Below are positions 18,820 to 45,929 of a stretch of 64,000 nucleotides of DNA, one piece after another; within the stretch, counting starts at the first letter, position 1; every line of letters begins with the position of its first letter. The notes under the pieces were generated by a model, which worked only from the letters and a program-made list of their open reading frames with translations, made no database searches and had not been told where the DNA came from. The DNA is from Thermodesulfovibrio yellowstonii DSM 11347 (GTDB taxonomy: Bacteria; Nitrospirota; Thermodesulfovibrionia; Thermodesulfovibrionales; Thermodesulfovibrionaceae), in contig NC_011296.1 in the NCBI RefSeq assembly GCF_000020985.1, positions 434,001 to 498,000 on the forward strand, read 5' to 3'. The position numbers and the translations under genes are program-made.

Positions 18820-18845
18820 AATTAACTCAATGGTGGACATTACTT

Positions 18846-18953: not shown

Positions 18954-19235
18954 CCGAGCGTAAGCGAGGGGTCTCCTCCGTTTCTTTCATTCCAAGCATT
19001 CTTAATAGACGCGAAGAATTCGCCTTTAAGGGTCATCCAGAGGGCAAAGCCCGAGGGATCTCCTCCTTTAGAAAAACAGAGGAGATTCCTCGCAAACCCT
19101 TCGCCTATGGCTCAGGGCTCGCTTCGCTCGGCTCGGAATTACATTCCTATTCTGTCACCCCGAGCGAAAGCGAAGGGTCTACTCCTTTGGAGGCGAGGAG
19201 ATTCCTCACTCCGCTTCGCTTCGTTCGGAATGACA
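18947..19235. repeat. Mosaic of interspersed repeats
   Basis: At least three units end to end. The first starts TGTCACCCCGAGCGTAAGCG. The middle one has GGTCATCCAGAGGGC and GGAGATTCCTCGC. The third is a complete copy at 19153-19235 from TGTCACCCCGAGCGAAAGCG to TTCGGAATGACA. Confidence 0.75.
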
Positions 19236-19390
19236 GGGAATAATTAGGGTTTACTTGTCTTTGGTAAATATTATAAGTTTTAAACATCGGCATGAAAGAA
19301 ATTTATACAGCTTCATAGGTATGTTAAGTAGTTTTTTATTTAGCATATTATGCGGAATTATTGTAAAAGAAATCTTACAGAATATTTAAG

Positions 19391-23915: not shown

Positions 23916-25352
23916 ATGAAAAAAAACTTCTTGTATTATTTGTCTCCCTCAGTAGTAATAGGAATATTGAGTACGTTTATAATGGTTCCTGTTACAACCT
24001 ACTATCTTGAACCAAAAGATTTTGGAATTTTTGCCATTATTAATACTATTGTTATGCCTATAGGACCTCTGTCTTCAACAGGAGTATCGTGGGTTCTGGG
24101 AGGAAATTACTATAAAATAAATGAGGAAGAAAGAAAAATATTGCTTTTTAATCTATTGATTCTGGATTTTACTTTTAAGTTTTTCTGGGTTATAGTATTC
24201 TGGCTTTTATCTTATTTATTATTGCCAGTTATAATAAAAGATTTTGAACACAGATATATACTATATTTTAAGTTAATATTATTAGCCACTCTATTTACAG
24301 CCTTATGGCCTACCATATCTTATTTCATTGTATTACAACAGAAAGGCAGATTGCATGCTATATTTGAAATAATTCCTTGGCTTTGTGGAGCAATAACTAC
24401 TATTGTTAGCTTGAGCGTTTTTAATTTTTCAACATTAGCATTATTTTTGAATCCTCTGGTGTCAGGTTTGACCTCATTTTTATTAGGTTTATGGTATATT
24501 AAAAATTATATAAAACCGATAATTGTAAAGAAGTGGTTAACTGAAATTTTTAAAGTGGGAATACCATCAATTCTAGTAAATTTAGTAGATATACTAACAA
24601 GCGTGTTAAGTAGATATTTTATTCAAAAATGGATAAATCTTTCTCAGCTTGGAATATATTCTCATTCCGAGAGTTATAAAACTATATTTACAATGGGCAC
24701 AAAGGCATTCAGCAGAAGTTTTGTTCCACCATTGCTTGAGGCTTTTTCAAAAAATACAAGCACCGAGAAAATAGAAACACAGTTAAAAAGATGGTATGGA
24801 CTATTAGGACTTGCAGGAGTTTTTGTGACCTTGTTTTCTTATGAAATAGTCAATATATTAACACATGGAAAATTTGTAAAAGCAGCACCGCTGGTACCAA
24901 TATGGTTTTTTCTTATTCTTTCGTTTACATATGGAATGCCTGGAACTCAATTTTTGCTTGTTCAAAAAAAAAATCAATTCATGATGTATTCTGGAATAAT
25001 CACAGGAATGATTTTTATTAGTGTTATTGCATTTTCGGTATATCAGTTTGGTCTATTCGGTGCGGTTATTTCTTTGGTATTGTATAACTTTTGCATTCAG
25101 TTAGTGAGAACTATTTACGCAAAGAAACTTGGCAGCAGAAATTTGGGAGAGAAATATTTTGCTTTAGTAACAGTTTTAATGTTTGGAGTTTACTTATTAA
25201 ATGAATTATTTAAGTTAAGTTTTATCGGTAAAATTTTAGTATTAATCCTATTATATGTCTATATATTTAAACAATTTGGATTAAATGAAATGATATATAA
25301 AAAACAAAAAATTTTTTTCATTATTTTAGCAAATAAGAATGAAAAAAAGTAA
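23916..25352 (+). CDS. wzx: Wzx-type O-antigen/capsule flippase
   Basis: 478 residues, about 12-14 hydrophobic helices spread over the full length and few charged loops. The N-terminus (LSPSVVIGILSTFIMVPVTTYYLEPKDFGIFAIINTIV) is characteristic of the polysaccharide-transport (PST/MOP) family. It flips undecaprenyl-diphosphate-linked repeat units to the periplasm, for polymerisation by the Wzy-like protein encoded further down. Its 3' end overlaps the APS kinase gene by 14 nt, so the sulfation genes belong to the same transcript. Confidence 0.85.
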   Translation: MKKNFLYYLSPSVVIGILSTFIMVPVTTYYLEPKDFGIFAIINTIVMPIGPLSSTGVSWVLGGNYYKINEEERKILLFNLLILDFTFKFFWVIVFWLLSYLLLPVIIKDFEHRYILYFKLILLATLFTALWPTISYFIVLQQKGRLHAIFEIIPWLCGAITTIVSLSVFNFSTLALFLNPLVSGLTSFLLGLWYIKNYIKPIIVKKWLTEIFKVGIPSILVNLVDILTSVLSRYFIQKWINLSQLGIYSHSESYKTIFTMGTKAFSRSFVPPLLEAFSKNTSTEKIETQLKRWYGLLGLAGVFVTLFSYEIVNILTHGKFVKAAPLVPIWFFLILSFTYGMPGTQFLLVQKKNQFMMYSGIITGMIFISVIAFSVYQFGLFGAVISLVLYNFCIQLVRTIYAKKLGSRNLGEKYFALVTVLMFGVYLLNELFKLSFIGKILVLILLYVYIFKQFGLNEMIYKKQKIFFIILANKNEKK

Positions 25353-25941
25353 CAATAATCTCACACTTTATAAAGGTTATATTAATAGAGAGGATAGAGA
25401 ACGTTTACATGGTCATAAATCATTTGTTATCTGGTTTACAGGTCTTCCTGCATCTGGCAAATCAACAATTGCTCACTTGGTTGAAAAAGAATTATATAAA
25501 AGAGGATGTTCTACATATGTATTAGACGGTGACAATGTTAGATATGGATTATGTTCAGATCTTGGATTTTCTATTGAAGAAAGGAAAGAAAATATCCGAC
25601 GAGTTGGGGAGTTAGTAAAATTATTTGTTGATGCCGGGATTATAGTGATTACAAGCTTTATCTCACCTTTTAAAGAAGATAGAGAAAAGGTTCGTTCTCT
25701 TTTTAAGGAAGAAGACTTTATTGAAGTATATACAAAATGTCCTGTGGAGACATGTTCTTTACGCGATCAAAAGGGTATTTATAAAAAAGCTATAAAAGGA
25801 GAAATAAAAAATTTTACAGGAATATCTGCACCTTATGAGGAACCTGAAAATCCAGAAATTACAATATTTACCGATATTGATAGCCCAATAGAAGCATGTC
25901 AAAAAATTTTAAGGTACATTAAAGATAAACTAAAATTATGA
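25339..25941 (+). CDS. cysC: Adenylylsulfate (APS) kinase
   Basis: 200 residues. It phosphorylates APS to PAPS, the universal sulfate donor. The P-loop is GLPASGKST, followed by VLDGDNVRYGLCSDLGFS, ERKENIRRVGE, VITSFISPFKEDREKVR, and the C-terminal IKNFTGISAPYEEPENPEI. All the standard CysC motifs are present. It lies inside the glycan operon and overlaps both the flippase gene and the next gene, a sulfotransferase (4 nt, ATGA). This strongly suggests that its PAPS serves polysaccharide sulfation rather than sulfate assimilation. ATP sulfurylase is not in the window. Confidence 0.93.
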   Translation: MKKSNNNLTLYKGYINREDRERLHGHKSFVIWFTGLPASGKSTIAHLVEKELYKRGCSTYVLDGDNVRYGLCSDLGFSIEERKENIRRVGELVKLFVDAGIIVITSFISPFKEDREKVRSLFKEEDFIEVYTKCPVETCSLRDQKGIYKKAIKGEIKNFTGISAPYEEPENPEITIFTDIDSPIEACQKILRYIKDKLKL

Positions 25942-27008
25942 AGTATAAAAAAATATTTTTTCACTTTTTATCAAAATATATTCCATCTGCATTAAAACTT
26001 AAAATTAAAAATTTTTTATTCTATTTTAAAAAATCATGCGTTACACTTGAAAAGCCTATTTTTATATGGGGCACGGGTCGGAGCGGTACACATCTTTTAT
26101 ATGATTTATTATCGTTACATCCTGATTTATGTTTTGTAAGAACATATAAACGATGGAAAAAAGGATTATGGGGAAGCATGCATTATGGGGATACAACACC
26201 AGAAAAATTAAAAGGTTATCCAATACCTGTAGAAGGAATGATATTTAATTGGCAAACAGCTGGCCTTATTCCCATCTTTAAGGGTAAAATGAAGAGAGAT
26301 CATATTTTGAAAATAAATAAAGATATTGTTATAGAGAACTATAAAACATTATATGTTAAATGGAAATGGTTAAAATGTGACAAGAAATATCGAGTATTAG
26401 ATAAAACACCTGCATATATAATGATGGTTGAAATAATAAATGAAATATTTCCTGATAGTTATCATATTTTTTGCATAAGGGATCCTCGATCTGTTGTTAA
26501 CTCAATCCTTAGAATCGCCAGATTTACAGGTAAAGATAACTTTGAAAAAGAATATAAAGATGGATTCTTTGCTAATATGTATCCAGATGGATATGAAAAA
26601 ATTATCGGGAAATCATTAGTTGAAATTATTTGTTGGCAAGTTGAGAAATTAATTCTTACAGGATTTAGTTATATTAAACTTTTAGATAATAGACTAATTC
26701 CATTCAGATATGAAGAATTGTTAAACGATATACATAATTCTTATTTCAATTTGATTAAAAAATTAGAACTTTCTCCATTTTATAAAATAATTGACTTAAT
26801 TCCTAATAAATTTCCAGACTATAGCCCTGATTGGCCACAGCCATTTGAAAACTTTGATGCAAATGAAAAGATTTGTTTCAATAGTGAGGAATTAAAATTT
26901 TTTTCAGAGATACAAAAATTAGCTATATTACTTGGTTATGATAAAAATAAACCCGGTAAAATTATTAAACCGATCAGTAGAGAGTTATATCAAATATCAA
27001 ATAATTAG
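25938..27008 (+). CDS. PAPS-dependent sulfotransferase
   Basis: 356 residues. The 5'-phosphosulfate-binding loop is IFIWGTGRSGTHLLYDLL near residue 42, and the 3'-phosphate-binding segment is IFCIRDPRSVVNSIL near residue 180. KTPAYIMM lies between them as the usual conserved stretch. It transfers sulfate from PAPS to an acceptor, here presumably a sugar hydroxyl of the surface glycan, because the gene is wedged between wzx-cysC and a glycosyltransferase. It overlaps cysC by 4 nt. It is AT-rich like the following genes. A soluble cytosolic enzyme; no membrane segment seen. Confidence 0.85.
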   Translation: MKYKKIFFHFLSKYIPSALKLKIKNFLFYFKKSCVTLEKPIFIWGTGRSGTHLLYDLLSLHPDLCFVRTYKRWKKGLWGSMHYGDTTPEKLKGYPIPVEGMIFNWQTAGLIPIFKGKMKRDHILKINKDIVIENYKTLYVKWKWLKCDKKYRVLDKTPAYIMMVEIINEIFPDSYHIFCIRDPRSVVNSILRIARFTGKDNFEKEYKDGFFANMYPDGYEKIIGKSLVEIICWQVEKLILTGFSYIKLLDNRLIPFRYEELLNDIHNSYFNLIKKLELSPFYKIIDLIPNKFPDYSPDWPQPFENFDANEKICFNSEELKFFSEIQKLAILLGYDKNKPGKIIKPISRELYQISNN

Positions 27009-28321: not shown

Positions 28322-29359
28322 ATGGAAATAACAATAGGTAAAAGAAAAATTGGTTATGAACATCCTGTTTATATTATTGCTGAAGGTTGTGATAATCATC
28401 TTGGCAATCTGGATGTTGCAAAGGAGATGGCAAGGCAGGCAAAACTCGCAGGTGCTGATGCCATTAAATTTCAGCATCATATACCTGATGAGGAGATGCT
28501 TCCTGATGTCCCTATGTCAGACAATTTCAATATGCCACTTTATGAATTTCTCAAAAAATATGCCTTAACACTTGAACAGCATATAGAATTAAAAAAATAC
28601 TGTGAATCAATCGGGATACAATATCTATGTACTCCTTTCAGCTGGAAAGCTGCTCAGGAATTAAATGAAATTGGCGTTGAAGCTTTCAAAATTGGTTCTG
28701 GGGAAATGACTGACATTCCAACTCTGAAAAAAATGGCTTCTTTTGGTAAACCCATGATAGTCTCTACAGGAATGAGCACTTTTGAAGAAATTGATAGAAC
28801 TTATAAATTATTGAGAGACATGAATGTTCCTCTGGTGCTTATGCATTGTGTTTCTGAGTATCCACCTGTTTATCATGATATCAATCTGAAAGTTATAAAT
28901 CAAATGATTGAGCGTTATCCTGAAGCAATTATTGGACATTCTGACCATACACCTGATTTATTTACCTGTTTTGCAGCTGTAGCACTCGGTGCAAAGGTTA
29001 TTGAAAAACATGTAATCCTTGACAAAAGACAGCCCGGTCCAGACCAATCTGTATCTATTGATTTTTATGAACTGGCAACATTGGTGGAAGGTATTCGTAA
29101 GATTGAATCAGCTATGGGTAATGAGAAAATTATACATGAAAGAGAAAAACAAATCAGAAAGTGGGCATTCAGAAGCATAGTATCTTTGAGTGATATTAAA
29201 GCAGGGGAAATAATAACAGAAGATATGATATGGTCAAAGAGGCCTGGGACAGGAATTCCTTCATATTTTATGGATAAAATTATCGGAGCAAAAGCTAAGC
29301 GATTTATACCTGCAAACACTTTACTCTCATGGGATGATATTGAGATAGAAAAGGAATAA
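28322..29359 (+). CDS. neuB: Sialic-acid synthase (NeuB family)
   Basis: 345 residues. It condenses ManNAc (or a related 6-deoxy sugar) with phosphoenolpyruvate to a nonulosonic acid. The TIM barrel shows YIIAEGCDNHLGNLDVAKEM, DAIKFQHH, KIGSGEMTDIP, STGMST, GHSDHTPD and EKHVILDKRQPGPDQ. The C-terminal SAF (antifreeze-like) domain starts near residue 285 (RSIVSLSDIKAGEIITEDM). The start has a GAGGG ribosome site. It heads a neuB-neuC-CBS-neuA set. Legionaminic or pseudaminic synthase is possible, but the extra aminotransferase/dehydratase genes those pathways need are absent, which favours Neu5Ac. Confidence 0.9.
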   Translation: MEITIGKRKIGYEHPVYIIAEGCDNHLGNLDVAKEMARQAKLAGADAIKFQHHIPDEEMLPDVPMSDNFNMPLYEFLKKYALTLEQHIELKKYCESIGIQYLCTPFSWKAAQELNEIGVEAFKIGSGEMTDIPTLKKMASFGKPMIVSTGMSTFEEIDRTYKLLRDMNVPLVLMHCVSEYPPVYHDINLKVINQMIERYPEAIIGHSDHTPDLFTCFAAVALGAKVIEKHVILDKRQPGPDQSVSIDFYELATLVEGIRKIESAMGNEKIIHEREKQIRKWAFRSIVSLSDIKAGEIITEDMIWSKRPGTGIPSYFMDKIIGAKAKRFIPANTLLSWDDIEIEKE

Positions 29360-30504
29360 TGAAAAAATTGAAATTATTATTTATAACAGGCTCCAGAGGA
29401 GAATGGGGATATATAAGGCCGATTTTAAGGCTCTGTAATAAAAGAAAAGATGTGAATTTTTCCCTATGTGTCACCAATATGCATCTTTTACCTGATTTCG
29501 GTTTATCCATAAAGGAGATTGAAAGAGACGGATTCCATGTTGATTATAAAATATATATGTCTCTTGATGGATACAATCATTATACAATGGTTAAATCGCT
29601 TGGAGTTTTTCTGTCTTCCTTAGCTGATGTAGTGGCAAGCACTAAGCCTGACTGGATTATATTAGCAGGAGATAGAGGGGAGCAACTTATGGGGGCAATT
29701 GTAGGAGCATTCTGTTATATACCCGTTGCTCATATACAGGCAGGTGAGCTATCTGGAAATATTGACGGTATGACAAGACACGCTATCGGTAAATATGCTC
29801 ATCTGCATTTTGCTTCAAATGAAGATGCCGCGGAGAGATTAATAAAATTGGGAGAAGAACCTTTCAGAATACATATTGTTGGAGCGCCTCAACTGGATGA
29901 ACTGGTGCAGGGTTTATATACTAAAAGAGATAACTTATTTAATAAATATTCGTTAAATTTACAAAATTATCTTTTAGTAATGCTACATCCTGTAACAGAA
30001 GAATATCATAAAGCTTCGGAACAGGTGGAAATTTTAATGCGTGCGTTGTCAAAGTTTGATATGCCAAAAATTGTAATTCTTCCCAATAATGATGCTGGTT
30101 CGTTAATGATCCGAGAAGGCATAGAAAACAACAGAAAGGGAGATTTTTATGTATTCTCTAATTTAAGTAGGGAAGATTATCTCGGTTTTCTAAAATATTG
30201 TAGTGCTATTGTGGGAAATTCAAGTTCAGGTATTTTAGAAGCACCAACCTTTAAAATCCCTGCAGTTAATATCGGAAGAAGGCAACATAAAAGACTAAGA
30301 GGAAATAATGTAATAGATGTTGATTTTGAGGAAGAGGCAATTATATCCGCCATAAAAAAAGCAATTTCAAAAGAATTCAGAGAAATGCTGAAAAATAATT
30401 GCACCAATCCTTACGGTGACGGTAAATCTTCAGAAAGGATTTTAAATATATTAATCAATATTCCTATTAATGATACCTTGTTAATTAAAAATCTGACATA
30501 TTAA
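29359..30504 (+). CDS. neuC: Hydrolysing UDP-GlcNAc 2-epimerase (NeuC family)
   Basis: 381 residues. It converts UDP-GlcNAc to ManNAc plus UDP, the first step to sialic acid. The N-terminus LLFITGSRGEWGYIRPILR matches NeuC/LegG rather than the non-hydrolysing WecB type. VAHIQAGELSGNIDGMTRHAIGKYAHLHFASNEDA is the family hallmark, followed by VGAPQLDEL, MLHPVTEEY, VGNSSSGILEAPTF and IGRRQHKR. It overlaps neuB by one base. LegG, which acts on UDP-diNAcBac, is the main alternative. Confidence 0.9.
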   Translation: MKKLKLLFITGSRGEWGYIRPILRLCNKRKDVNFSLCVTNMHLLPDFGLSIKEIERDGFHVDYKIYMSLDGYNHYTMVKSLGVFLSSLADVVASTKPDWIILAGDRGEQLMGAIVGAFCYIPVAHIQAGELSGNIDGMTRHAIGKYAHLHFASNEDAAERLIKLGEEPFRIHIVGAPQLDELVQGLYTKRDNLFNKYSLNLQNYLLVMLHPVTEEYHKASEQVEILMRALSKFDMPKIVILPNNDAGSLMIREGIENNRKGDFYVFSNLSREDYLGFLKYCSAIVGNSSSGILEAPTFKIPAVNIGRRQHKRLRGNNVIDVDFEEEAIISAIKKAISKEFREMLKNNCTNPYGDGKSSERILNILINIPINDTLLIKNLTY

Positions 30505-30515
30505 AGGAGATAATA

Positions 30516-30881
30516 ATGGATAAAGTTACTAAATTCTGTGTTAATGATAAAAATACAATCAAAGAGACAATATCTGTGATTCAAGGAAATTTTTCAAGAT
30601 GCGTTGTTGTTCTAAATGAAAATAAAAAAGTTGTTGGAGTATTCAGCGAAGGAGATGTTTTAAGAACAATTTTACAGAATATTGATTTACATACCCCGCT
30701 GAAAAAGGTTATTAGTCCATCTTTTCTGTATTTAAAAGAAAAAAATATGTCAAAAGCTTATGAACTTATAAAAAAGTATGGGATAACTTTAATTCCCGTA
30801 ATAGATGATAGTTTCAATCTCAAAGAGGTAATAACGATTTTTGATGTAATGAAGCATCTGGAGTTTATAAATGGAAAATAA
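30516..30881 (+). CDS. Stand-alone two-CBS-domain protein in the sialic-acid set
   Basis: 121 residues, just two CBS repeats: VVVLNENKKVVGVFSEGDVLRTIL (first) and LIPVIDDSFNLKEVITIFDVMKHL (second). CBS pairs bind adenosine nucleotides or SAM and act as regulatory modules. In the legionaminic-acid pathway a CBS pair is fused to a nucleotidyltransferase (PtmE). Here it is free and overlaps neuA by 11 nt, so it may regulate NeuA or NeuB in trans. The ribosome site is GGAG (AAAGGAGATAATAATG). Its function is an inference from place and fold. Confidence 0.8.
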   Translation: MDKVTKFCVNDKNTIKETISVIQGNFSRCVVVLNENKKVVGVFSEGDVLRTILQNIDLHTPLKKVISPSFLYLKEKNMSKAYELIKKYGITLIPVIDDSFNLKEVITIFDVMKHLEFINGK

Positions 30882-31566
30882 GATAGTTGCTATTATTCCT
30901 GCCCGTGGTGGTTCTAAAGGAATACCCAAAAAAAATATTGCTTTATTGAAAGGTAAACCCTTGCTGGCATATACAATTGAATCAGCAATTGAATCAATGG
31001 TGACAAAAGAGATTTTTGTCAGTACTGATTCTGAAGAAATAGCTGAGATTTCAAAAAAATATGGAAGTAAAGTTATAATGCGTCCTGCAGAACTCTCTCA
31101 TGATACAGCATCTACTGAATCAGCTTTGATTCATGCTATAGAAACTATCAGACAGGAGTATAATTGGATGCCCGATTATGTTTTAACTCTTCCTCCAACG
31201 TCCCCTCTCAGAAGCGCTAAAACAATTAAGGAATTTGTTAAATATTTTTTATCACTTGATGGTAAATATGATGCCATGCTTTCTCTTACTGTTCATAGAG
31301 GAGATTTCTGGAAAAAGGATTCTCAAGGAAATTTTGTTAGATTATTTCCTGATGCGCCGAGAAGAAGACAGGATAGAGAGCCACTTTATCTTGAAAATAG
31401 TGCCATTTATATAACAAAGACAGAATCTCTGTTAATCACTAATTCCATACTGGGTAAGCATTGCACGGGCTTTATTATAAATGATATTGAAGCTACAGAT
31501 ATCAATGAGCCTATTGATTTGTTGTGGGCGGAATTTTTGATAGAACATGTTTTTAACAAAAAATAA
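30871..31566 (+). CDS. neuA: CMP-sialic-acid synthetase (NeuA family)
   Basis: 231 residues, full length. It activates the nonulosonic acid with CTP to the CMP-sugar used by sialyltransferases. Motifs are AIIPARGGSKGIPKKNI (nucleotide binding), STDSEEIAEI, RPAELSHDTASTESA, LPPTSPLRSAKTI, RRRQDREPLYLENSAIYI and the C-terminal DINEPIDLLWAE. It overlaps the CBS gene by 11 nt. The next gene may encode the transferase that uses its product. Confidence 0.92.
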   Translation: MENKIVAIIPARGGSKGIPKKNIALLKGKPLLAYTIESAIESMVTKEIFVSTDSEEIAEISKKYGSKVIMRPAELSHDTASTESALIHAIETIRQEYNWMPDYVLTLPPTSPLRSAKTIKEFVKYFLSLDGKYDAMLSLTVHRGDFWKKDSQGNFVRLFPDAPRRRQDREPLYLENSAIYITKTESLLITNSILGKHCTGFIINDIEATDINEPIDLLWAEFLIEHVFNKK

Positions 31567-31570
31567 GCCA

Positions 31571-33208
31571 ATGGATTTTAATCTATATTTTAATTTTTTT
31601 ACAAAAAAAGTTTTTGGACAATATCTTCCAAGATATAAATGGATGAAAGAGGAATATGGCAGGCTCAGGAAACTTTTACCTGAGTTTTTAAAAGAGAGGC
31701 TGGTGAAAAATTATGATAAACGAGTGCTTTTTGCCAGCATGGGTTCTTATGATGCCAAAACAGAGGGCATTTATCTTAAAGCTCTGGAAACCATCAGTTA
31801 TGAACCCTGCGTTATAACAGCCTATGATCCTTATGTTAAAGACATATTCAGCCTCTATGGAATTAAAAATGTCTTTTACTATGAAGATTACCTTAAGAAA
31901 TATTCTACTGACAGGCTGAAAAAGGAGGCGGAATTTTATTTAAAACATGTTAAGGGAAAAGAAATTTTAAATATTAAAATGGATGGAATAAGTGTGGGAA
32001 AGTACGCTGCTTCATCATTCATGAGGATTACAAGAAGTAGCAGTATAAAGATAAATAATGAACAGGATAAACTCATATTAATTAATCAGATGACGAAGTC
32101 CTTACAGGCTGCTAAAGCGATAGAGGATATTTTAAAGGATCTTAACCCAGATCTTGTATTAGTTATTGACCGTGGATATACTCCTGTAGGTCAACTCTTT
32201 GATGCATGTTTAATTAATGATATTCCTGTAATTACAAGAAATGCATCTCATAAAAGTGGCTTTGAAATTGTTAAAAGGTATTCATCACCTCAGATGAGTC
32301 CAGTGCATCCGCAGTCATTATCTTCAGAGTCATGGGAATATATAAAACAAATGGCATGGAATGAAAGCAAATGGCAAATCCTTTACAAAGAACTTTTTGA
32401 CACTTACAACACTGGAGACTGGTTTGCCGAAGTAGGCACACAATTTGGTAAAAGAATGTATGCGAAAGAAGAACTTTTAGAGAAACTTCAATTAGATGAG
32501 CATAAAAAAACTGCTATAATATTCCCTCATATGTTCTGGGATGCCACTTTTTTCTGGGGCGAAGATTTGTTTGAGGACTATTATGACTGGTTTGTTAATG
32601 TCTTGAAGGTAGCAGCTAAAAATAAAAATCTAAACTGGATAATAAAGATACATCCTGCAAATGTGGTAAAGGCAAAGAGAGATGATTATAAAGGTGTTCA
32701 TAAAGAATTGGCAGCTGTGTATGAAACACTTGGTAGTTTGCCTGAGCATATAAAAGTTATTCCCCCCGAAAGTGATATAAATACCTTTAGTTTATTTAGT
32801 TTAATGGATTACTGTCTTACTGTTAGAGGCACAATTGGTATAGAAGCCTCCATGATGGGAATAAATACAATAACTGCAGGTACAGGCAGATATGACAGGC
32901 TTGGATTTACTCATGATTTTGACTCAAAAGAGGAATATTTGGATTTTGTTAAAAATTTACATGATGTTCCACCAATGAATGAAAAGAGTATAGAACTTGC
33001 CCGTCGTTTTGCTTATGGTATTTTCCTATTAAGACCAATACATCTTGATCTTCTGGATTTAAGATACAATCAGGATGAAAAAGGTTCTATGAGATTTAAA
33101 CCTCTTTTCAAAAATATAGAAGAATTTGAAAGTTCAAAATTTGTTCAAGGTTTGAAAGATTTTGTAATTTCTAAAAAAGAGGATTATTTAGATATGGATA
33201 GAATTTAA
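31571..33208 (+). CDS. Capsule-type GT-B transferase, candidate sialyltransferase
   Basis: 545 residues from ATG 31571; an ATG at 31547 is an alternative that overlaps neuA. Neither has a clear ribosome site. I do not recognise a named family with certainty. The C-terminal half resembles capsule-polysaccharide/Kdo or glycerophosphate transferases: WIIKIHPANVVKAKRDDY, then VIPPESDINTFSLFSLMDYCLTVRGTIGIEASMMGINTITAG. The N-terminal half has RVLFASMGSYDAKTEGIYLKALE and LVLVIDRGYTPVGQLFD. No membrane segment. It directly follows neuA, so transfer of the CMP-activated acid is a reasonable guess, not shown. Confidence 0.6.
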   Translation: MDFNLYFNFFTKKVFGQYLPRYKWMKEEYGRLRKLLPEFLKERLVKNYDKRVLFASMGSYDAKTEGIYLKALETISYEPCVITAYDPYVKDIFSLYGIKNVFYYEDYLKKYSTDRLKKEAEFYLKHVKGKEILNIKMDGISVGKYAASSFMRITRSSSIKINNEQDKLILINQMTKSLQAAKAIEDILKDLNPDLVLVIDRGYTPVGQLFDACLINDIPVITRNASHKSGFEIVKRYSSPQMSPVHPQSLSSESWEYIKQMAWNESKWQILYKELFDTYNTGDWFAEVGTQFGKRMYAKEELLEKLQLDEHKKTAIIFPHMFWDATFFWGEDLFEDYYDWFVNVLKVAAKNKNLNWIIKIHPANVVKAKRDDYKGVHKELAAVYETLGSLPEHIKVIPPESDINTFSLFSLMDYCLTVRGTIGIEASMMGINTITAGTGRYDRLGFTHDFDSKEEYLDFVKNLHDVPPMNEKSIELARRFAYGIFLLRPIHLDLLDLRYNQDEKGSMRFKPLFKNIEEFESSKFVQGLKDFVISKKEDYLDMDRI

Positions 33209-35034
33209 TGTGCGGGATTGTTGGCTTAACAGACAGAGATAACTTCCATCTTCTTTCCAAAATGAATAATATTCTTTTTCATAGAGGACCCGATGATAGT
33301 GGTGAATTTATAGATAAAGAAAGCGGTTTCGCTTTTGCTATGAGAAGGCTTGCCATAATAGATATTGAAGGTGGTAAGCAACCTATGAGTAATGAAGATA
33401 ATAGCCTCTGGGTGATATGCAATGGAGAAATATATAATTCACCAGAATTAAGAAAGAATTTGATAAAGAAAGGACATATTTTTAAAACAAAAAATTCTGA
33501 TGTGGAAGTGCTATTACATTTATATAAAGAAAAAGGCACGCAGTTATTGCAGGATTTAAATGGCATGTTTGCCTTTGTAATTTATGATAAAAATAAAGGA
33601 ATTTTATTTGGAGCAAGGGATCGGATAGGCATTAAACCTTTTTATTACTGTTACAAAAATGGAAAATTCGCTTTTTCATCTGAGATGAAAAGCCTACTTA
33701 TACTTCCGTGGATTTCAAAGGAAATAAATCCTGAAAGCCTTTATCACTATATAAGTCTTCAGTTTGTGCCTGCACCTTACAGTATATTTTTGGATATAAA
33801 AAAACTTCCTGCAGGACATTACTTTATATATGACTTGCACAAAAAGGAGTTAATCATAAATAAATACTGGGAACTTAATGTATCTGAACTTGAGAATAAA
33901 TCTGTTGATGAATGGAAAGAGCTCATAATACAAAAGTTAAAAGAGTCTATTAAAAGATGGACATTAAGCGATGTGCCGATTGCATGTTCACTTTCAGGTG
34001 GGCTTGATTCTTCAACAGTTGTTGGAATTCTGGCAAGTGAGGGATTCAGTGATTTAAGAACATATTCTCTCGGATTTAAAAGTATAGAGGAGCAGGAATT
34101 TAATGAACTTCCATTGGCAAGAAAAGTTGCTGAAAAGTGGAACACTGATCATCATGAAGTAGTTATTGATGCAAAAAGAATTCTTAATGACTTAGAAAAA
34201 ATGGTATGGCATCTTGATGAGCCATATGCTGGCGGGTTGCCTTCATGGTATATTTATGAAATTATCGGAGAGGATGTTAAGGTTGCGTTAACTGGCACAG
34301 GTGGAGATGAATTATTTGGAAATTATGGTAGATATAAAGTTCATGAAAGAGGTTTATGGTATAAATTTTTAAAAGCTATGAAAGAAAGCATCCTAAATCA
34401 CAATTTTTCTGAAATAAAAAATGCATTTAGGTATCCAAAGGGATATTTTTACTGGAAATATTTTTCAGATGCTGTGAAGGATAAGATTATATTTAACGAT
34501 TACAACCAGAAATACAAAACAGAGGCTTATCTTGAAAATATCTGGCATGAATCAGGCACAAAAAATCCTCGTAATGCAGTAGCTTATATTGATTTTAGAC
34601 TTCAACTGCCAGAGGAATTTTTGCATGTTACAGATCGTTTTTCAATGGCTCATTCTGTTGAAGCTCGGGTTCCTTTTCTGGATCATGAGCTTGTGGAGTT
34701 AGTTTTTAAAATGCCTCCTGCTATGCGCACAGGATGGAATGAACCAAAATCTTTTTTTAAAAGCATTATTAAGAATTTATTACCTGAAGAGTTATGGAAT
34801 GCTCCAAAAAGAGGATTCATATTGCCATTGACTTTATGGACAAGAAAAGACTTAAAATTTTTGATAAAAGAAAGTTTATCTCCTGATTATCTTAAAAAAC
34901 AAGGAATTTTCTCAGAAAAAGTTTATGATAAAATTGTTAACCCTCATCTTGAAGGTAAAAAAGACTATACACAACAGGTCTGGACCTTTTTGATGTTCCA
35001 GATGTGGTATAAAAAGTATGTATTAGGAGATTAA
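33208..35034 (+). CDS. asnB: Glutamine-hydrolysing asparagine synthetase-like amidotransferase
   Basis: 608 residues. The N-terminal class II glutaminase has the nucleophile Cys2 (MCGIVGLTDRD), then HRGPDDSGEF and RRLAIIDIEGGKQPM. The C-terminal synthetase has the PP-loop SLSGGLDSSTVVG near residue 265 and TGTGGDELFGNYGRY. AsnB proteins make asparagine, but copies within O-antigen loci can form sugar-acid amides (known for some uronic acids). It overlaps the preceding gene by one base (TAATG). A role in modifying a uronic or nonulosonic acid carboxyl group is plausible here. Confidence 0.85.
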   Translation: MCGIVGLTDRDNFHLLSKMNNILFHRGPDDSGEFIDKESGFAFAMRRLAIIDIEGGKQPMSNEDNSLWVICNGEIYNSPELRKNLIKKGHIFKTKNSDVEVLLHLYKEKGTQLLQDLNGMFAFVIYDKNKGILFGARDRIGIKPFYYCYKNGKFAFSSEMKSLLILPWISKEINPESLYHYISLQFVPAPYSIFLDIKKLPAGHYFIYDLHKKELIINKYWELNVSELENKSVDEWKELIIQKLKESIKRWTLSDVPIACSLSGGLDSSTVVGILASEGFSDLRTYSLGFKSIEEQEFNELPLARKVAEKWNTDHHEVVIDAKRILNDLEKMVWHLDEPYAGGLPSWYIYEIIGEDVKVALTGTGGDELFGNYGRYKVHERGLWYKFLKAMKESILNHNFSEIKNAFRYPKGYFYWKYFSDAVKDKIIFNDYNQKYKTEAYLENIWHESGTKNPRNAVAYIDFRLQLPEEFLHVTDRFSMAHSVEARVPFLDHELVELVFKMPPAMRTGWNEPKSFFKSIIKNLLPEELWNAPKRGFILPLTLWTRKDLKFLIKESLSPDYLKKQGIFSEKVYDKIVNPHLEGKKDYTQQVWTFLMFQMWYKKYVLGD

Positions 35035-35035
35035 A

Positions 35036-35782
35036 ATGCATGAGATTGAATGGACGGATGAGAAAATAGCTCTAATCTGGAATTATTATGCTAAAAATCC
35101 CTCTTATCAGGGTCAGTATTTTAGCTGTCATTCAGGCAGAAATATAATTGAATATGTAAATAAGCATATTAAACTTAAAAATATTAAAACATTTCTTGAT
35201 TTCGGTTGTGGACCAGGGTATCTCATAGAGCACTTGCTGAAATTTTTAGGCAATAGATGGGGGGGGAAGGTACACGGACTTGATTTTTCAAAAGAATCTA
35301 TTGAGAAGTTTAGAGAGAAGTTTAGTAGATTTAATAATGTTGCAAATGCGATTTGGGTAAATAAACTACCTTTTCCGATAGAAGATAATTCTATAGATTG
35401 CGTCTTTGCAGTAGAGATAATAGAACATCTAAATGATTTATATTTATCGGCCACATTAAATGAAATATACAGAATTTTAAGACCAGGCGGTTATTTAATT
35501 ATTACAACACCTAACAATGAAGACCTTGAAGCTAATAAAACAATCTGTCCAGAATGCGGTTGTATCTTTCATAGATGGCAACATGTCAGAAGTTGGGATA
35601 AAGTTTCTTTAAATATGCTATTAAACCAGCATAATTTTACTGATATAAAAATAAAAGAAGCTTTAATTTATCCTGATAGTTCAAGAAAAATAATTAAAGT
35701 TCTTAAGAAAGTTATAAAAGTGCTACTGATGGAGAGAAAAAATATTAATCCAAATAAAATAGTTGCAATTGTTAAAAAATGA
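35036..35782 (+). CDS. Class I SAM-dependent methyltransferase
   Basis: 248 residues. Motif I is FLDFGCGPGYLIEHLL near residue 58, followed by VHGLDFSKESIEKF, the acidic segment DCVFAVEIIEHL and YRILRPGGYLIITTPN. A CPECGCIFHRWQHVRSW stretch near residue 175 looks like a small zinc or substrate site shared by some glycan methyltransferases. The GGAG ribosome site overlaps the asnB end, which is one base upstream. It likely O- or N-methylates a sugar of the repeat unit. Confidence 0.8.
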   Translation: MHEIEWTDEKIALIWNYYAKNPSYQGQYFSCHSGRNIIEYVNKHIKLKNIKTFLDFGCGPGYLIEHLLKFLGNRWGGKVHGLDFSKESIEKFREKFSRFNNVANAIWVNKLPFPIEDNSIDCVFAVEIIEHLNDLYLSATLNEIYRILRPGGYLIITTPNNEDLEANKTICPECGCIFHRWQHVRSWDKVSLNMLLNQHNFTDIKIKEALIYPDSSRKIIKVLKKVIKVLLMERKNINPNKIVAIVKK

Positions 35783-37038
35783 ATAATTTACGAGTTCTTC
35801 ATATAAGCACTACTGATAAAAAAGGAGGTTCTGGGCGCTCAGCATATAGAATACATTCTTCTCTCAAAAATTATGGAATTAATTCAGAAATGTTAGTAGG
35901 TTATAAATCAATTAATGATCCTGATGCTAACTGTCTCAATAAAAAAATATTAAAATTTACAGATCGTATTTGTAACAAATTTATGAGTTTTTATGGACTG
36001 TCAGATATATTTTATCCTTCTTCCTTTTTTTTATTGAGACATCCTTCATTTAAAAAATGTAATATTTTACAACTCTATAATATACACGGTAATTATTTTA
36101 GTTTTTTATCGTTACCTTTATTAAGCATTTATAAGCCTATTGTATGGAGATTATCTGATATGTGGCCTTTGACTGGTCACTGTGGTTACAGTTACGAATG
36201 TGAAAAATGGAGAAATGGATGTGGAAATTGCCCCTACCTTGATGAATATCCACCTTTAAATAAAGATAAAACCGCTTTTTTATGGAAGTTGAAGAAGTAT
36301 GTTATGAATAAAATTAAATATATGATAATTGTTGCTCCTTCTTTATGGATAAAAAATTTAGTTCAAGAAAGCCCGATTCTTTGCAAATTTCCAATATTCT
36401 ATATACCGAATGGAGTTAATACTGAAATTTTTAAAAAACATAATAAAATGAAAATTCGGGAATCTTTGGGGATCAGTCCTAATAAAAAAGTTATATTATT
36501 TATAGCAGAGGATTTTTTTAAGGATAAAAGAAAAGGAGGAATATATTTAATTGAAGCCCTCAGGTTATTAGATAGATCTTTTTTAAAAAATTTAGTATTA
36601 CTCATAATTGGTAAAAATGATGTTAATGATGAAATTATAATACCTGTTGATATAATTAAAACTGGTTCTATTAGTAATGATATACAATTGGCAGAGTTTT
36701 ATTCCTCTGCAGACCTGATGGTTCTACCAACTCTTGCTGATAACTTGCCTAATACTTTACTTGAAAGCATGTCCTGCGGAACTCCTGTTGTGGCATTTAA
36801 TAATGGTGGAGTTCCTGAAGTAATAAAACATATGGAAAATGGATATCTTGTTAAAAATAGAGATGTTGAAGAACTTGCAAGAGCTTTGAAATTATTTTTA
36901 TCAAATGATATTTTTTTAAAAAGTTTGTCCGAAAATTGTAGAAATCATATTTGTAAAAATTTTTCTCAAGATAAAGAAATTAAAAAATATATTGAATTAT
37001 ATTCAGAGTTAATAAAAAATGAAAAATCATTTTATTGA
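35779..37038 (+). CDS. Glycosyltransferase family 4, WcaC-like
   Basis: 419 residues. The GT-B start is RVLHISTTDKKGGSGRSAYRI. A Cys-rich acceptor-side insert (DMWPLTGHCGYSYECEKW, then NGCGNCPYLDEYPP, about residues 128-158) is typical of a GT4 branch found in colanic-acid-like loci. The C-terminal donor site shows LPTLADNLPNTLLESMSCGTPVVAFNNGGVPEVI with the E-x7-E pattern. It overlaps the methyltransferase by 4 nt and the next GT by 20 nt. Sugar specificity unknown. Confidence 0.85.
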   Translation: MNNLRVLHISTTDKKGGSGRSAYRIHSSLKNYGINSEMLVGYKSINDPDANCLNKKILKFTDRICNKFMSFYGLSDIFYPSSFFLLRHPSFKKCNILQLYNIHGNYFSFLSLPLLSIYKPIVWRLSDMWPLTGHCGYSYECEKWRNGCGNCPYLDEYPPLNKDKTAFLWKLKKYVMNKIKYMIIVAPSLWIKNLVQESPILCKFPIFYIPNGVNTEIFKKHNKMKIRESLGISPNKKVILFIAEDFFKDKRKGGIYLIEALRLLDRSFLKNLVLLIIGKNDVNDEIIIPVDIIKTGSISNDIQLAEFYSSADLMVLPTLADNLPNTLLESMSCGTPVVAFNNGGVPEVIKHMENGYLVKNRDVEELARALKLFLSNDIFLKSLSENCRNHICKNFSQDKEIKKYIELYSELIKNEKSFY

Positions 37039-37972
37039 TGAATCTGATAAACCTTTGGTTTCAATAATTACACCAACTTACAATCAGGCTAAATTTTTAG
37101 CTGAAACGATTGAAAGTGTTCTTAAACAGGACTATAAAAATATTGAATATATAATAATTGATGGTGGTTCTACCGATGGAACGTTAGATATTTTGAAAAA
37201 ATATAGTGATAAAGTTTTCTGGATTTCAGAAAAGGACAAAGGACAGGTCGATGCAATAAATAAAGGTTTGAAAATTGCAAAGGGTTCTATATTAGCTTAC
37301 CTTAATTCAGATGATACCTATTATACAGAAAATGCTGTTTCTCTCGCTGTAGAGTACTTAATTAATAATTCTCACATAGGAATCGTATACGGTAAAAGCG
37401 TTTATGTAGATGAAAAAGGACAAATAATTGGTTACTATAATTCCTATGAATTTGATTATGAAAAAATATTTAGTGAATGTCTAAACCCCGTTCCTCAGCC
37501 TTCAACTTTTATAAAAAGAGAAGTGTTTGAAAAAATAGGTTTTTTTGATGATAAGTTGTGTTATGCAATGGATTTGGATTTTTGGCTCAGAGCAGGATTA
37601 TTTTTTCAGTTTGGTTATTTACCTGAAATATTATCAACATTCAGGCTTCATTCTGAGTCAAAAAGTGTTGCTTGTATTGCAAAGGCTGCCCCAGAAATAA
37701 TTTATATATATAAGAAAATTTTTAGAAATCCAAATTTGCCAAATGATTTAAAAAATAAAGAAAAAGAGATTATGGCACGAGTTTATCTATATTCAGCAGA
37801 ACAATATTTTTCTGGGAATTCTTGGAAAGAAGCAAGAAAAAATTTTATAAAAGCTTTAAGATTAAATGTTAAAGTATTAAAACTCAAACAATATATTAAA
37901 TTTATATTTTCATTAATGCCAATAATTTTTAAGCCTTTTTGGGGAATAATTAAAAAAACTCATGCTAAGTAA
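37019..37972 (+). CDS. Glycosyltransferase family 2
   Basis: 317 residues. The GT-A fold opens with PLVSIITPTYNQAKFLAETIESVL, then IIIDGGSTDGTLDIL and the metal-binding pair in LAYLNSDDTYY. NPVPQPSTFIKREVFEKIGFFD and YAMDLDFWLRA follow as the acceptor-binding part. The C-terminal 60 residues are helical and basic. It probably adds a hexose from a nucleotide sugar to the lipid-linked repeat unit. It overlaps its neighbours at both ends (20 and 11 nt). Confidence 0.87.
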   Translation: MKNHFIDESDKPLVSIITPTYNQAKFLAETIESVLKQDYKNIEYIIIDGGSTDGTLDILKKYSDKVFWISEKDKGQVDAINKGLKIAKGSILAYLNSDDTYYTENAVSLAVEYLINNSHIGIVYGKSVYVDEKGQIIGYYNSYEFDYEKIFSECLNPVPQPSTFIKREVFEKIGFFDDKLCYAMDLDFWLRAGLFFQFGYLPEILSTFRLHSESKSVACIAKAAPEIIYIYKKIFRNPNLPNDLKNKEKEIMARVYLYSAEQYFSGNSWKEARKNFIKALRLNVKVLKLKQYIKFIFSLMPIIFKPFWGIIKKTHAK

Positions 37973-39407
37973 ATACCTATATTTTCATCAATTAATAAAA
38001 ATAATTGTAACATTAATAATTCTTTTAATTTGTTTTATTTTTTGTCTTCAGTATATTTGTGGTGTACCTATAAATGCTAATTTATTAACTTATTTTCTTT
38101 TATTCATAATATGCATTTTTACTTACAGATTATCTAAATCTTCCAGAATTTTTTTACAAAACATGATAAATTTATCAGTAGCTTTTTTTATAATTATATT
38201 TTTTTTACAAAGGATAATTATTTTAATAATAAATCCTTCTTTTTTTGGATGGGTTCAATACGAAGGATTTAAGACACTTACAATAAATGAATTAAACTGG
38301 GCAATTATAACTTATTGTATAATAACAGGAATTTTTGTTATATCAATTAAACTTTTTTCAGAAAATGTAAAATTTTCATCAACACAATTTGTTGATATTT
38401 ACTTTAAGAGTAGAAAATTGATTTATTTTTTAGCTTATCTTATTCAAATAAGTCTGATATTATTAACAATCAAAATGAATTGGAAAATGGGACAAGAATG
38501 GCATTATGGTTGGATTACACGATTACTCCCTGTGAGTATTTTCCCATATATATTTGCCTGTTTTTTAGTAGATTATAGACATCTTCTAAATAAGGCAGAA
38601 AAAGGAATAATTATTATTTTCTTTTTACTTAATTATTTATGGGGATTACTTCAAGGAAGCAGGGCAGGAATTTATTTATTAATTTTACTTTTTCTGATTG
38701 CGTTTTTAACTAAATATGGAGATTTTAAAATATCTCTTAAAAGCTTGGGCATTTTCTTTTTACTTATTTTATTTATAAGTATACCTTCATGGTTTATTGC
38801 TGCAAATATAAGAGGAACAACTTATGAAACAGAGATAATTCCTATTATATCTTCTATTTCACAAAGATTATCAGGTGGAATTGATAATTTTATATTAATA
38901 ATAAATAATCGTTATTATGAACAATACACGGATATTATTAGCTGGGCTAATATAATAAAATCATCAATTAATGCTTTTGTGCCAGGTAACTTATTTAACA
39001 TTCCATTTGAAAGTTTGGGGAGTTTTATGAAAATTTTAATATATGGCGATGAGAGTGAAAGAATTCATGGAGAAGGATGGACTGTATCCGCACAATTTTA
39101 CATAATGACAGATTATTTCGGGATGTATATATTTACATTTTTATGGGCTATGTTATTTGTTAAACTTTTCAAGTTTTTTTCTAATAAAAATTCTTTTTTA
39201 AATAGATTGATAAAAATACAACTTTTTAATATTTTTATTTTGAATTTTTGGGACGGACATAATTTAGATGCAATTATTTCAGAAATTATGTATATAGCAT
39301 TTTACTATATTGCTTTTCACTTATTTTTAAATTTTGTTTATTTTACTATAAAAAATGAAACAAATGGGAAAAAACAATCATGTATAGAAAAATTTCAAGG
39401 ATCCTGA
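37962..39407 (+). CDS. wzy: Wzy-like O-antigen polymerase (oligosaccharide repeat unit polymerase)
   Basis: 481 residues with 11-13 hydrophobic helices and a long soluble segment at about residues 275-375 that carries RGTTYETEIIPIISSISQR and EGWTVSAQFYIMTDYFG. QGSRAGIYLLILLFLIAFL is the text most like known O-antigen polymerases. Wzy proteins vary greatly, so the call rests on topology, size and location beside wzx and GTs. One 60-base line here (from 38041) has only 14 G/C, among the most AT-rich in the window. It overlaps the next gene by 28 nt. Confidence 0.65.
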   Translation: MLSKYLYFHQLIKIIVTLIILLICFIFCLQYICGVPINANLLTYFLLFIICIFTYRLSKSSRIFLQNMINLSVAFFIIIFFLQRIIILIINPSFFGWVQYEGFKTLTINELNWAIITYCIITGIFVISIKLFSENVKFSSTQFVDIYFKSRKLIYFLAYLIQISLILLTIKMNWKMGQEWHYGWITRLLPVSIFPYIFACFLVDYRHLLNKAEKGIIIIFFLLNYLWGLLQGSRAGIYLLILLFLIAFLTKYGDFKISLKSLGIFFLLILFISIPSWFIAANIRGTTYETEIIPIISSISQRLSGGIDNFILIINNRYYEQYTDIISWANIIKSSINAFVPGNLFNIPFESLGSFMKILIYGDESERIHGEGWTVSAQFYIMTDYFGMYIFTFLWAMLFVKLFKFFSNKNSFLNRLIKIQLFNIFILNFWDGHNLDAIISEIMYIAFYYIAFHLFLNFVYFTIKNETNGKKQSCIEKFQGS

Positions 39408-41179
39408 ATTTAAATATTTCTGAAAAGATGAAAGGTTTTTTTATGTGCATATGCCTTTTTATTTTAATGTCTCCTTTTATTTTAATGAAAACTGGAATAG
39501 GTGAGGATGATGCAGCAATAATTTTAGCATCTATTAATCTTTCAAAATATGAAATATTCACACCAAATTTATTTAAAAATTTAATAGCTAATCTTTTTAA
39601 CTATTCTCATGGATGGATGAATTTAGTTTGGTCATATTTCTGGTATTATTTATTAAATTTATTTAATATTCCACTGTATACATGGGTATTTATTTTTCCT
39701 TCAACATCATGTATTTTTCTCTCTATGATTGGTATTTATTTTTTTACTTATAATATTACTAAAAATTATAAAATTAGTTTCTTTTCATCATTAATATTTA
39801 TAACCTTTCCGATTATCCTTGGATTAGCGCGTTCATATACTATTACTATATCCCTCCCTCTTTTTATGCGAACATGGTTTTTACTATCTATAGTTTGGGT
39901 ATTAAATAATAAAACTAAATTTAATATGGCATTTTGTATGATTCTAATGGGTGCTTTGATTTGTTCAGAAAATGTTTTTTATTTCCCTATTTTTTTAGCA
40001 ATTGTTTTAATTTTTTTATTTTTTTTACAAAAAAATTTACAAATAGATGATTTAAAGCAAAGCGTTCTTATGTCATTAAAAAATACATTATTATTTTTCA
40101 AAAATCCTTTTATAATTATACCTTTTGTTATAATATTTCTTTATGTCATTGCTTTTATTTGTGAAGAGATATTATCAATTCAGAACGGTTTTCTTCGGTA
40201 TCCTTTTATTAGACATGAGGGGAAGGGAATTGTATTAGGTCTTCCAGAAAACTTTTTAAAACAATTGATATCTCATCTGGGTTATGGAATATTTATCATA
40301 TTTACATTAATTAGTGTTTATTTATTTTATTTTTTTAAGAAAAAGATTAATTTTAATGGCAAGAGTTATCTTATTATTTTTTTATATACTTGGATGTTTT
40401 TAAGTATTTTTCTGATTTTCCTGTATTCCCCTAAAAATAATGCTATGCATTTTATTTCATGGGCAACGCCACCAATGTGCATAATTTTTGCTATAGGTTT
40501 TCATTATTTTTTCAATAAAACAAAAAAAATTATGGGCATGTTTATTATAATGATTGTAACATTAAATTTTTTAAGCACTATAAGTATAGTTTTTGATAAA
40601 CCCTTTGAATTAAATAAAATATATGGCTCTTCTGTCCCATATAATGTTTCTCATACTTTTAAAGCTGTTGGAACAATACTACGCAATGAAAAATATGCTC
40701 CAGTAATAGATGATGACCAGACAACAATCAAATTTGATGATTTGATAAAAGGAATCAAATCAAAAATTTCAGACAAAAATAATTCTTTTATTTTTTCAAA
40801 AAGAAATTTAATCAAACAAGAGAGAAAAATAGTTTTAGCAGGAATTGTCCCTGGTACGAAAAAATCTCCTTATTTAGCCTTGTTTTACTGGGGAGCAGAT
40901 GTAGCTCATATACCAGATAATAAAACTCTTGTAATTATTAATATTAAGGAATTTAATGAAAATAAGGAACATAAAATTAATTCCTTAAACTTTGCCAAAG
41001 ATAATAATTTTAGTATAAAGTATGTTTTATACGATAAAGATGAGCCTGTATGCTGGATGTTTTATAAAAATTATAAAGGTCCTGTTGTGAAATATCAAAT
41101 AAAAGAATTATGTGATGAATTTGATAAAAAATATGCTTCCATTAAATATATAAAGACACCTTGGGCACATGCTTTGTAA
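39380..41179 (+). CDS. GT-C family membrane glycosyltransferase (ArnT/PMT-like)
   Basis: 599 residues. About 10-12 membrane helices fill residues 18-425, followed by a soluble C-terminal domain. An acidic pair in the first outer loop (GIGEDDAAII, Glu42-Asp44) matches the catalytic loop of GT-C enzymes that use lipid-linked sugars. ARSYTITISLPLF is a further family-like stretch. It may decorate the glycan in the periplasm using an undecaprenyl- or polyprenyl-phosphate sugar, perhaps one made by the DPM1-like GT2 encoded at 42647. Very AT-rich. A Wzy-type role is the main alternative. Confidence 0.65.
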   Translation: MYRKISRILNLNISEKMKGFFMCICLFILMSPFILMKTGIGEDDAAIILASINLSKYEIFTPNLFKNLIANLFNYSHGWMNLVWSYFWYYLLNLFNIPLYTWVFIFPSTSCIFLSMIGIYFFTYNITKNYKISFFSSLIFITFPIILGLARSYTITISLPLFMRTWFLLSIVWVLNNKTKFNMAFCMILMGALICSENVFYFPIFLAIVLIFLFFLQKNLQIDDLKQSVLMSLKNTLLFFKNPFIIIPFVIIFLYVIAFICEEILSIQNGFLRYPFIRHEGKGIVLGLPENFLKQLISHLGYGIFIIFTLISVYLFYFFKKKINFNGKSYLIIFLYTWMFLSIFLIFLYSPKNNAMHFISWATPPMCIIFAIGFHYFFNKTKKIMGMFIIMIVTLNFLSTISIVFDKPFELNKIYGSSVPYNVSHTFKAVGTILRNEKYAPVIDDDQTTIKFDDLIKGIKSKISDKNNSFIFSKRNLIKQERKIVLAGIVPGTKKSPYLALFYWGADVAHIPDNKTLVIINIKEFNENKEHKINSLNFAKDNNFSIKYVLYDKDEPVCWMFYKNYKGPVVKYQIKELCDEFDKKYASIKYIKTPWAHAL

Positions 41180-42637: not shown

Positions 42638-42646
42638 GAGTGCAAT

Positions 42647-43585: not shown

Positions 43586-43590
43586 AAACA

Positions 43591-45922: not shown

Positions 45923-45929
45923 TAACGAA

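Follow-up and report, generated by a model that had tools for sequence, protein, structure and literature searches.

A candidate CMP-nonulosonate transferase with a KpsC-like predicted fold, encoded next to neuA in Thermodesulfovibrio yellowstonii, and its widespread bacterial family

KpsC, a dual-module retaining beta-Kdo transferase of the GT99/GT107 type, acts on a CMP-activated ulosonate, and its Asp160 is reported to form a covalent Kdo adduct that was mapped by mass spectrometry (PMC10148158). Kdo adducts were likewise described for Asp232 of WbbB (PMC9587256) and Asp193 of KrkA (PMC12887879), and the latter 2026 paper on GT140/KrkA places Glu102 of KrkA at the end of the strand before that of KpsC Glu66. 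Features of this retaining ulosonate transferase superfamily (GT99/GT107/GT140-like) are a KpsC/WbbB-type GT-B fold, the nucleophilic Asp of a QxxxD motif with an invariant Gln, a CMP-binding (K/R)xHP motif, and a Glu of the N-terminal domain that serves as general base. As stated in PMC12887879, KpsS1 of A. baumannii (GT118) is a retaining Pse transferase related to KpsS; it is reported to be 30% identical to E. coli KpsS, with both donor and product alpha, and to have a putative base at the KrkA-type position. From the equatorial C5 substituent of sialic acids, the same paper derives a stereochemical argument that a switch to these sugars may not come easily to retaining Kdo-like enzymes. 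Nonulosonate-linked proteins outside the classical sialyltransferase families are also described in PMC7439481, namely the Tannerella TagB-type Pse/Leg transferase candidates and B. subtilis SpsB; SpsB is a TagB-domain protein that adjoins Leg genes and, according to that source, is dispensable for Leg on spores, so gene neighbourhood alone can mislead.

The window analyzed here, a 64,000-nucleotide stretch of the T. yellowstonii genome (a single 2.0-Mb contig), contains a surface-polysaccharide cluster in which a glycosyltransferase is ordinary, but the family to which one of its proteins belongs stands out as the best candidate to supply the nonulosonate transferase that is missing from many bacteria. 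With a probability of roughly 0.8, we consider this 545-aa protein to be a member of the KpsC-like superfamily that acts as a CMP-nonulosonate transferase, regardless of the sugar and anomer involved; that it is a CMP-nonulosonate transferase at all, irrespective of superfamily, is slightly more probable still. The features considered are listed below.

23916-25352, forward strand: Wzx-type flippase of the same cluster (profile search)
28322-29359, forward strand: neuB, nonulosonate synthase (profile search; below the curated cut-off of the best model)
29359-30504, forward strand: neuC, UDP-hydrolysing UDP-GlcNAc 2-epimerase (TIGR03568, 403 bits against a cut-off of 235.9)
30516-30881, forward strand: small CBS-domain protein that recurs beside neuC in related loci (profile search, related loci)
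30871-31566, forward strand: neuA, CMP-nonulosonate synthetase (cytidylyltransferase; profile search, below the curated cut-off of the best model)
31571-33208, forward strand: candidate CMP-nonulosonate transferase, 545 aa, reading frame open and intact (Pfam, family alignment, AlphaFold model, structural alignment, neighbourhood)
32168-32170, forward strand: Asp200, candidate general base, acidic in 67 of 68 family members, its position argued from topology relative to KrkA Glu102
32528-32530, forward strand: His320, at the place of the QxxxD Gln to which the Kdo carboxylate binds (65 His, 2 Gln and 1 Pro among the 68)
32540-32542, forward strand: Asp324, Asp in 68 of 68, aligned with the KpsC nucleophile Asp160
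32645-32656, forward strand: K359-I-H361-P362, (K/R)xHP motif predicted from the family alignment to bind CMP; H361 and P362 in 68 of 68
32825-32845, forward strand: R419-GTIGI-E425, aligned with the TSxxGFEA loop of KpsC
33208-35034, forward strand: AsnB-type amidotransferase, overlapping the transferase frame by one base; directly downstream also in 19 of 75 related loci

The genes neuB, neuC, the CBS-domain gene, neuA and the transferase gene share one strand, each adjoining or overlapping the next to within a few bases, and the transferase frame, which the original prediction placed right after neuA, opens 5 bases past the end of that gene. An alternative in-frame ATG upstream, at 31547, would give 553 residues; the start at 31571 is favoured because L052, the nearest homologue at 62% identity, is 546 residues long. 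Both capsule-type features noted earlier are present, IKIHPAN at residues 358-364 and RGTIGIEASMMG at residues 419-430, and the Pfam Capsule_synth model PF05159 matches just above its cut-off (23 against 20 bits) at residues 303-453, in the C-terminal part only. No NCBIfam model matched the protein, and direct sequence searches of the PDB with the single protein or with a 68-row profile returned no relatives. The N-terminal half, which had been called unplaceable, was left unlabelled by the Pfam and NCBIfam searches, but in the predicted structure it folds at high confidence and lies within the range of the structural alignment to KpsC and WbbB (model residue 45-51 onward).

Several neighbouring genes deserve a comment of their own. 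A free-standing CBS-domain protein adjoins neuC in loci L053, L057, L061, L064, L065, L069, L071, L079, L087, L088, L089 and L131, where NeuC is window-like, and this protein is possibly a nucleotide-sensing regulator of nonulosonate synthesis. The AsnB-type amidotransferase downstream may act on the nonulosonate or on an adjacent uronic acid, and the polysaccharide may be sulfated, because an APS kinase and a sulfotransferase are encoded in the same cluster at 25339-27008. The overlapping reading frames at 18740-19247 consist of short repeats (TPSVSEGS, CHPE) and resemble a repetitive element, not a gene.

A plain protein search gave matches in 35 of the 395 genomes of the phylum, the source genome included, and a scan of the collection with an 11-row alignment yielded 89 confirmed loci, the best 80 of which are considered below. 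The scan relied on two peptide patterns (TVRGT-G-E and the WD..FF.G stretch), one being sufficient per locus; the patterns cover D324, R419, G420 and E425, whose invariance therefore stems in part from the selection, and H361, P362, H320 and residue 200 lie outside the patterns. The Asp and HP motifs are retained in members collected by plain tblastn (rows of alignment A1), and the Asp also persists, as judged by eye, in six more distant relatives (L022, L024, L025, L027, L029 and L030). Alignment A2 comprises 68 sequences, the window protein and those of 67 of the best 80 of 89 loci. With the HMM made from it, the 17 nearest proteins of the phylum reached 534-1408 bits and two outliers reached 217 and 187 bits, and KpsC and other Capsule_synth proteins obtained no more than 20 bits. 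Owing to this gap between members at 534 bits or above and the other Capsule_synth proteins, the family is discrete as judged from sequence, and it does not belong to the KpsC family proper by this measure. PF05159 is matched by 46 of the 68 members at E ≤ 0.01, and no NCBIfam model matches more than one of them; BFO_1060 is matched weakly by a single member (E 0.0018), and no relation to the TagB-type candidates of Tannerella emerged at the level of the family.

Among the best 80 of 89 loci, members are labelled as coming from, among others, Nitrospira, Omnitrophota, Planctomycetota, Lentisphaerae, Opitutales, several classes of Proteobacteria, Desulfobacterota, Acidobacteria, Actinobacteria, Chloroflexi, Elusimicrobia, Spirochaetaceae, Fibrobacteres, Flammeovirgaceae and Peregrinibacteria or Peribacteria. 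Five members (L094, L103, L110, L114 and L129) lie on contigs labelled Pelagibacteraceae or uncultured Alphaproteobacteria, and tblastn in plasmids and in phages gave one partial match each. The family is a well-delimited and widespread relative of the KpsC capsule enzymes, and neither it nor a retaining sialyltransferase was found described among the listed results of open-access literature searches. The gene appears to have been acquired horizontally, since the 10 congeners in the set gave no match to the 545-aa protein and its nearest relatives, among the best 80 of 89 loci, belong to MAGs of Planctomycetota (62%) and Omnitrophota (52%); the GC content, which is 24-29% at 36001-46000 in the downstream portion of the cluster and 32-42% over most of the remaining window, is in line with such acquisition.

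The genomic association with Neu genes was assessed by tblastn with the Neu proteins of the window and of E. coli K1, and it is not built in, because the search for family members used no neighbour information. NeuA and NeuB together were found beside 60 of the best 80 of 89 loci, all three of NeuA, NeuB and NeuC beside 56 and at least one beside 66; no Neu gene was seen at the remaining 14, nine of which have less than 8 kb upstream. When at least 8 kb upstream was available (58 loci from the same best 80 of 89), both NeuA and NeuB were present in 49, any Neu gene in 53 and none in five. Control loci from the same phylum had any Neu gene in 0 of 20 cases for GT4 relatives of the protein at window 35779-37038, and in 6 of 20 for other Capsule_synth proteins, with NeuA plus NeuB in 2 of 20. 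The controls come from one phylum and the 80 loci from many, so the fairer comparison is the one within the phylum, where 11 of the 17 family loci have NeuA plus NeuB, compared with 0 of 20 for GT4 (Fisher p 1.4e-5) and 2 of 20 for the other Capsule_synth proteins (p 7e-4). The six phylum loci without this pair are L035, L042 and L045-L048, of which L035 and L045 are on contigs shorter than 9 kb.

In 32 of the best 80 of 89 loci, fewer than 600 bp separate the end of NeuA from the transferase gene downstream of it; the same holds for NeuC in 6. The pathway leading from UDP-GlcNAc to a nonulosonate by way of neuB, neuC and neuA is well established. In two Bradyrhizobium loci (L125 and L127), neuB, neuC, neuA and the transferase gene follow one another almost without gaps, and these four genes would make up a complete route from UDP-GlcNAc to the transferred nonulosonate. 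Over the 26 loci with all genes, distances between transferase modules correlated with those of NeuA (0.82), NeuB (0.77) and NeuC (0.69) more strongly than with those of AsnB (0.46) and GT4 (0.54); the contrast is smaller over the larger set available for each pair (0.65, 0.59 and 0.52 against 0.56 and 0.61), and shared ancestry inflates all of these values. Separately, L045-L048 (genus g6) form a four-member clade of the family with no NeuA, NeuB or NeuC in the fetched stretch, and HILDDA replaces H..WDA in L046 and L047. Capsule_synth proteins outside the family were seen near NeuA and NeuB (L228, L236), near NeuA only (L232, L233) and near NeuB only (L234, L237), and represent further unclassified nonulosonate-linked groups.

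A fused protein gives a view of two such pathways at one locus. A Nitrospira MAG encodes a 1,174-aa protein (L064:4996-8517, identical with locus L034:11995-15519) that has two family modules and is located between two NeuB/NeuC sets; both modules carry the Asp, HP and RGT motifs. Module 2, NeuB2 and NeuC2 each have their nearest relative in L065. Module 1 is nearest to L084, L095 and L089 (L080 being seventh), NeuB1 to L080, L084 and L095, and NeuC1 to L080. By this pattern, the two modules largely track one nonulosonate pathway each, with the exception of L089 and L088, where a module near module 1 of L064 accompanies NeuB and NeuC of the set-2/window type.

Concerning the sugar itself, the genes favour Neu5Ac or a derivative of it over legionaminic or pseudaminic acid. 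Because the window has no LegC-type aminotransferase, CMP-Neu5Ac is the most likely donor: none of the five DegT aminotransferase matches of the genome is in the window, DegT was found within 4 kb of a Neu gene in 0 and anywhere in 4 of the best 80 of 89 family loci, with a probe that may miss divergent LegC, and the NeuC encoded in the window scores above the curated cut-off for UDP-GlcNAc 2-epimerases. We thus lean, with some reserve, towards Neu5Ac over other nonulosonates. A different CMP-nonulosonate, for example one with legionaminic acid, with an epimer or with a derivative that is formylated or amidated, is a serious minority possibility; divergent NeuB/NeuC types in the family loci, window NeuB and NeuA scores that fall short of the curated cut-offs of the best-matching models, and the AsnB-type genes directly downstream of the transferase gene all point in this direction. 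So does the neuB-neuC-neuA-transferase operon of L101, which includes formyltransferase-like and polysaccharide-deacetylase-like reading frames (L101:6078-7828) and, on account of these, suggests an N-formylated or re-acylated nonulosonate in that locus. Identity to NeuA, NeuB and NeuC of E. coli K1 failed to separate the nonulosonate types.

Competing candidates for the transferase were sought in the window and in the genome. The statement that the window contains no recognized sialyltransferase family member was borne out for the cluster, as the sialyltransferase-family Pfam models matched none of the 21 cluster proteins scanned. No Maf or GT38 protein was found in the genome by searches that detected the positive controls; the genome-wide searches for GT52, GT80 and GT42 also gave no matches, but they likewise missed their positive controls. 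PF03102 gave a single strong match, the NeuB of the window (257 bits), besides two weak ones elsewhere (57 and 47 bits), and the only PF05159 protein of the genome is the 545-aa protein itself. The latter is the sole such candidate that these genome searches brought out.

The original prediction had proposed a comparison with GT38, GT52, GT80, GT97 and KpsS/KpsC, and KpsC led the 50 structural matches listed. The AlphaFold2 model obtained from A2 (pLDDT 95.5, pTM 0.94) was aligned by VIA-align first with KpsC entries (Z 15.7-14.1) and then with WbbB (13.3), at rmsd 3.8-5.0; other GT-B structures reached Z ≤ 12.6, the leading ones at rmsd 7-8.5, and GT38 and GT80 structures were absent among the 50 matches listed. 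At E ≤ 1, the 545-aa protein had no match to Pfam models of GT52, GT80 and GT42 (PF07922, PF11477 and PF06002), to GT38 (PF07388) or to polyol-phosphate transferases. E. coli NeuS (GT38) gave an hhalign probability of 0.3%, and single-sequence hhalign against KpsS, NeuE and NeuS found nothing. The KpsS profile, which represents KpsS and not KpsS1, was matched weakly by A2 (E 0.0016, probability 16%).

When A2 was compared with a profile of nine KpsC modules (A3), the two could be aligned with E 2.1e-8 and 95% probability: H320-MFW-D324 falls on Q156-TFN-D160, KIHP on KVHP, and RGTIGIEA on TSQYGFEA. D324, H361, P362, R419 and E425 are invariant in the 68 sequences of A2, K359 is Lys in 67 and Arg in one, and D/E200, H/Q320, D324, H361 and E425 are kept together in 66. 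Residue 200 is Asp or Glu in 67 of 68 and ends the strand preceding the one that matches the Glu66 strand of KpsC, a topology that suggests the KrkA Glu102-like position; the base assignment is topological, since the HMM-HMM alignment covers the C-terminal domain alone. An earlier equation of Asp200 with KpsC Glu66 through an [ED]xG[FY] motif was rejected, because a global profile alignment sets Glu66 at about residues 224-227, on the next strand, where the family has no conserved acid.

The family thus resembles KpsC in its predicted GT-B fold, in the aligned nucleophile Asp, KxHP and C-terminal E motif, in the CMP-activated ulosonate donor that we infer for it, and in the tandem modules of the L064 protein; unlike KpsC, it has His for the Gln of QxxxD, has no aligned Glu66-type base and is linked to NeuA, NeuB and NeuC. 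The GT99 module of WbbB is similar in fold and, by fold class, in the HP motif and nucleophile position, and differs in its Kdo donor, in a base on another strand and in giving no sequence-level match. By description only, the N-terminal module of KrkA (GT140) shares the nucleophile, (K/R)xHP and the acid ending the preceding N-terminal strand, with Kdo as donor and a canonical QxxxD as differences; KpsS1 shares the broad superfamily and a nonulosonate donor. The original prediction had named a strong match to a Kdo or polyol-phosphate transferase family with different donor residues as the outcome that would speak against it. Half of this was found: the fold is that of KpsC, but the sequence resemblance is remote, and the Gln of QxxxD is His in 65 of 68 members.

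On this basis, the GT-B protein would take the CMP-nonulosonate, most likely CMP-Neu5Ac, from the products of the adjacent neuB, neuC and neuA, and transfer the nonulosonate to the growing repeat unit of the surface polysaccharide. Asp324 would attack the anomeric carbon, as in KpsC and WbbB, His361 would bind or protonate the phosphate of the leaving CMP, and a covalent enzyme-nonulosonate adduct would form; Asp/Glu200 would then activate the acceptor hydroxyl, which displaces Asp324, with net retention. Provided that the protein is a CMP-nonulosonate transferase, such a retaining double displacement is probable. CMP-Neu5Ac is the beta anomer, so retention would lead to a beta-sialoside. An inverting CMP-nonulosonate transferase, with a KpsC-like C-terminal domain derived from a sialyltransferase-like ancestor, a structural or carboxylate-binding Asp324 and an ordinary alpha-sialoside as product, is unlikely, even though the loss of the ulosonate-carboxylate-binding Gln to His and the strand devoid of a conserved Glu66-type acid would suit it. 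It is opposed by the presence of Asp324, aligned with Asp160, in all 68 sequences, by the retaining enzymes being the closest folds and by the acid at the KrkA Glu102-like position in 67 of 68.

A different donor, e.g., CMP-Kdo or a CDP-polyol, for a gene that merely resides in nonulosonate loci and perhaps adds a sugar onto the nonulosonate, appears distinctly improbable. Four members (L045-L048) and five long loci have no Neu genes nearby, and SpsB is a precedent (PMC7439481), but the polyol-phosphate transferase Pfam search was negative, the modules of the fused L064 protein follow the NeuB/NeuC sets, the distances correlate better with NeuA and NeuB than with other cluster genes, and searches of the genome for Maf and GT38 and of the cluster with sialyltransferase-family Pfam models brought up no rival candidate. 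An epimerase-like enzyme is most improbable, since the UDP-GlcNAc 2-epimerases that Foldseek ranked first for the model (KpsC being 21st) reached at best Z 11.7 at rmsd 8.8 in VIA-align against 15.7 for KpsC, the PF02350 match (17.3 bits) is below the Pfam cut-off of 30.6, and a normal NeuC is encoded next door. The proposal that this protein leads the candidates for a new CMP-nonulosonate transferase is therefore supported by NeuA and NeuB at 60 of the best 80 of 89 loci, by a predicted fold nearest to CMP-Kdo transferases and by its being the only such candidate found in the genome.

Nonulosonate genes without a recognizable sialyltransferase are found in this genome and beside the family genes of many uncultured lineages, and a conserved family would fill this transferase gap and give an annotation handle for MAGs. 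We regard it as a tentative possibility, short of an even chance, that these proteins from many phyla are the first family of retaining sialyltransferases, forming beta-linked sialosides from CMP-Neu5Ac through a covalent Asp-sialyl intermediate, one of them being a naturally occurring tandem enzyme whose two modules serve two different nonulosonates. If retaining, the family would offer a route to beta-sialosides and would overturn the expectation expressed in PMC12887879 for KpsC-type enzymes and sugars with an equatorial C5 substituent; if inverting, it would represent a change of mechanism inside one fold, so either outcome would be informative. Moreover, the tandem L064 protein would allow the donor specificity of two modules to be read in one polypeptide.
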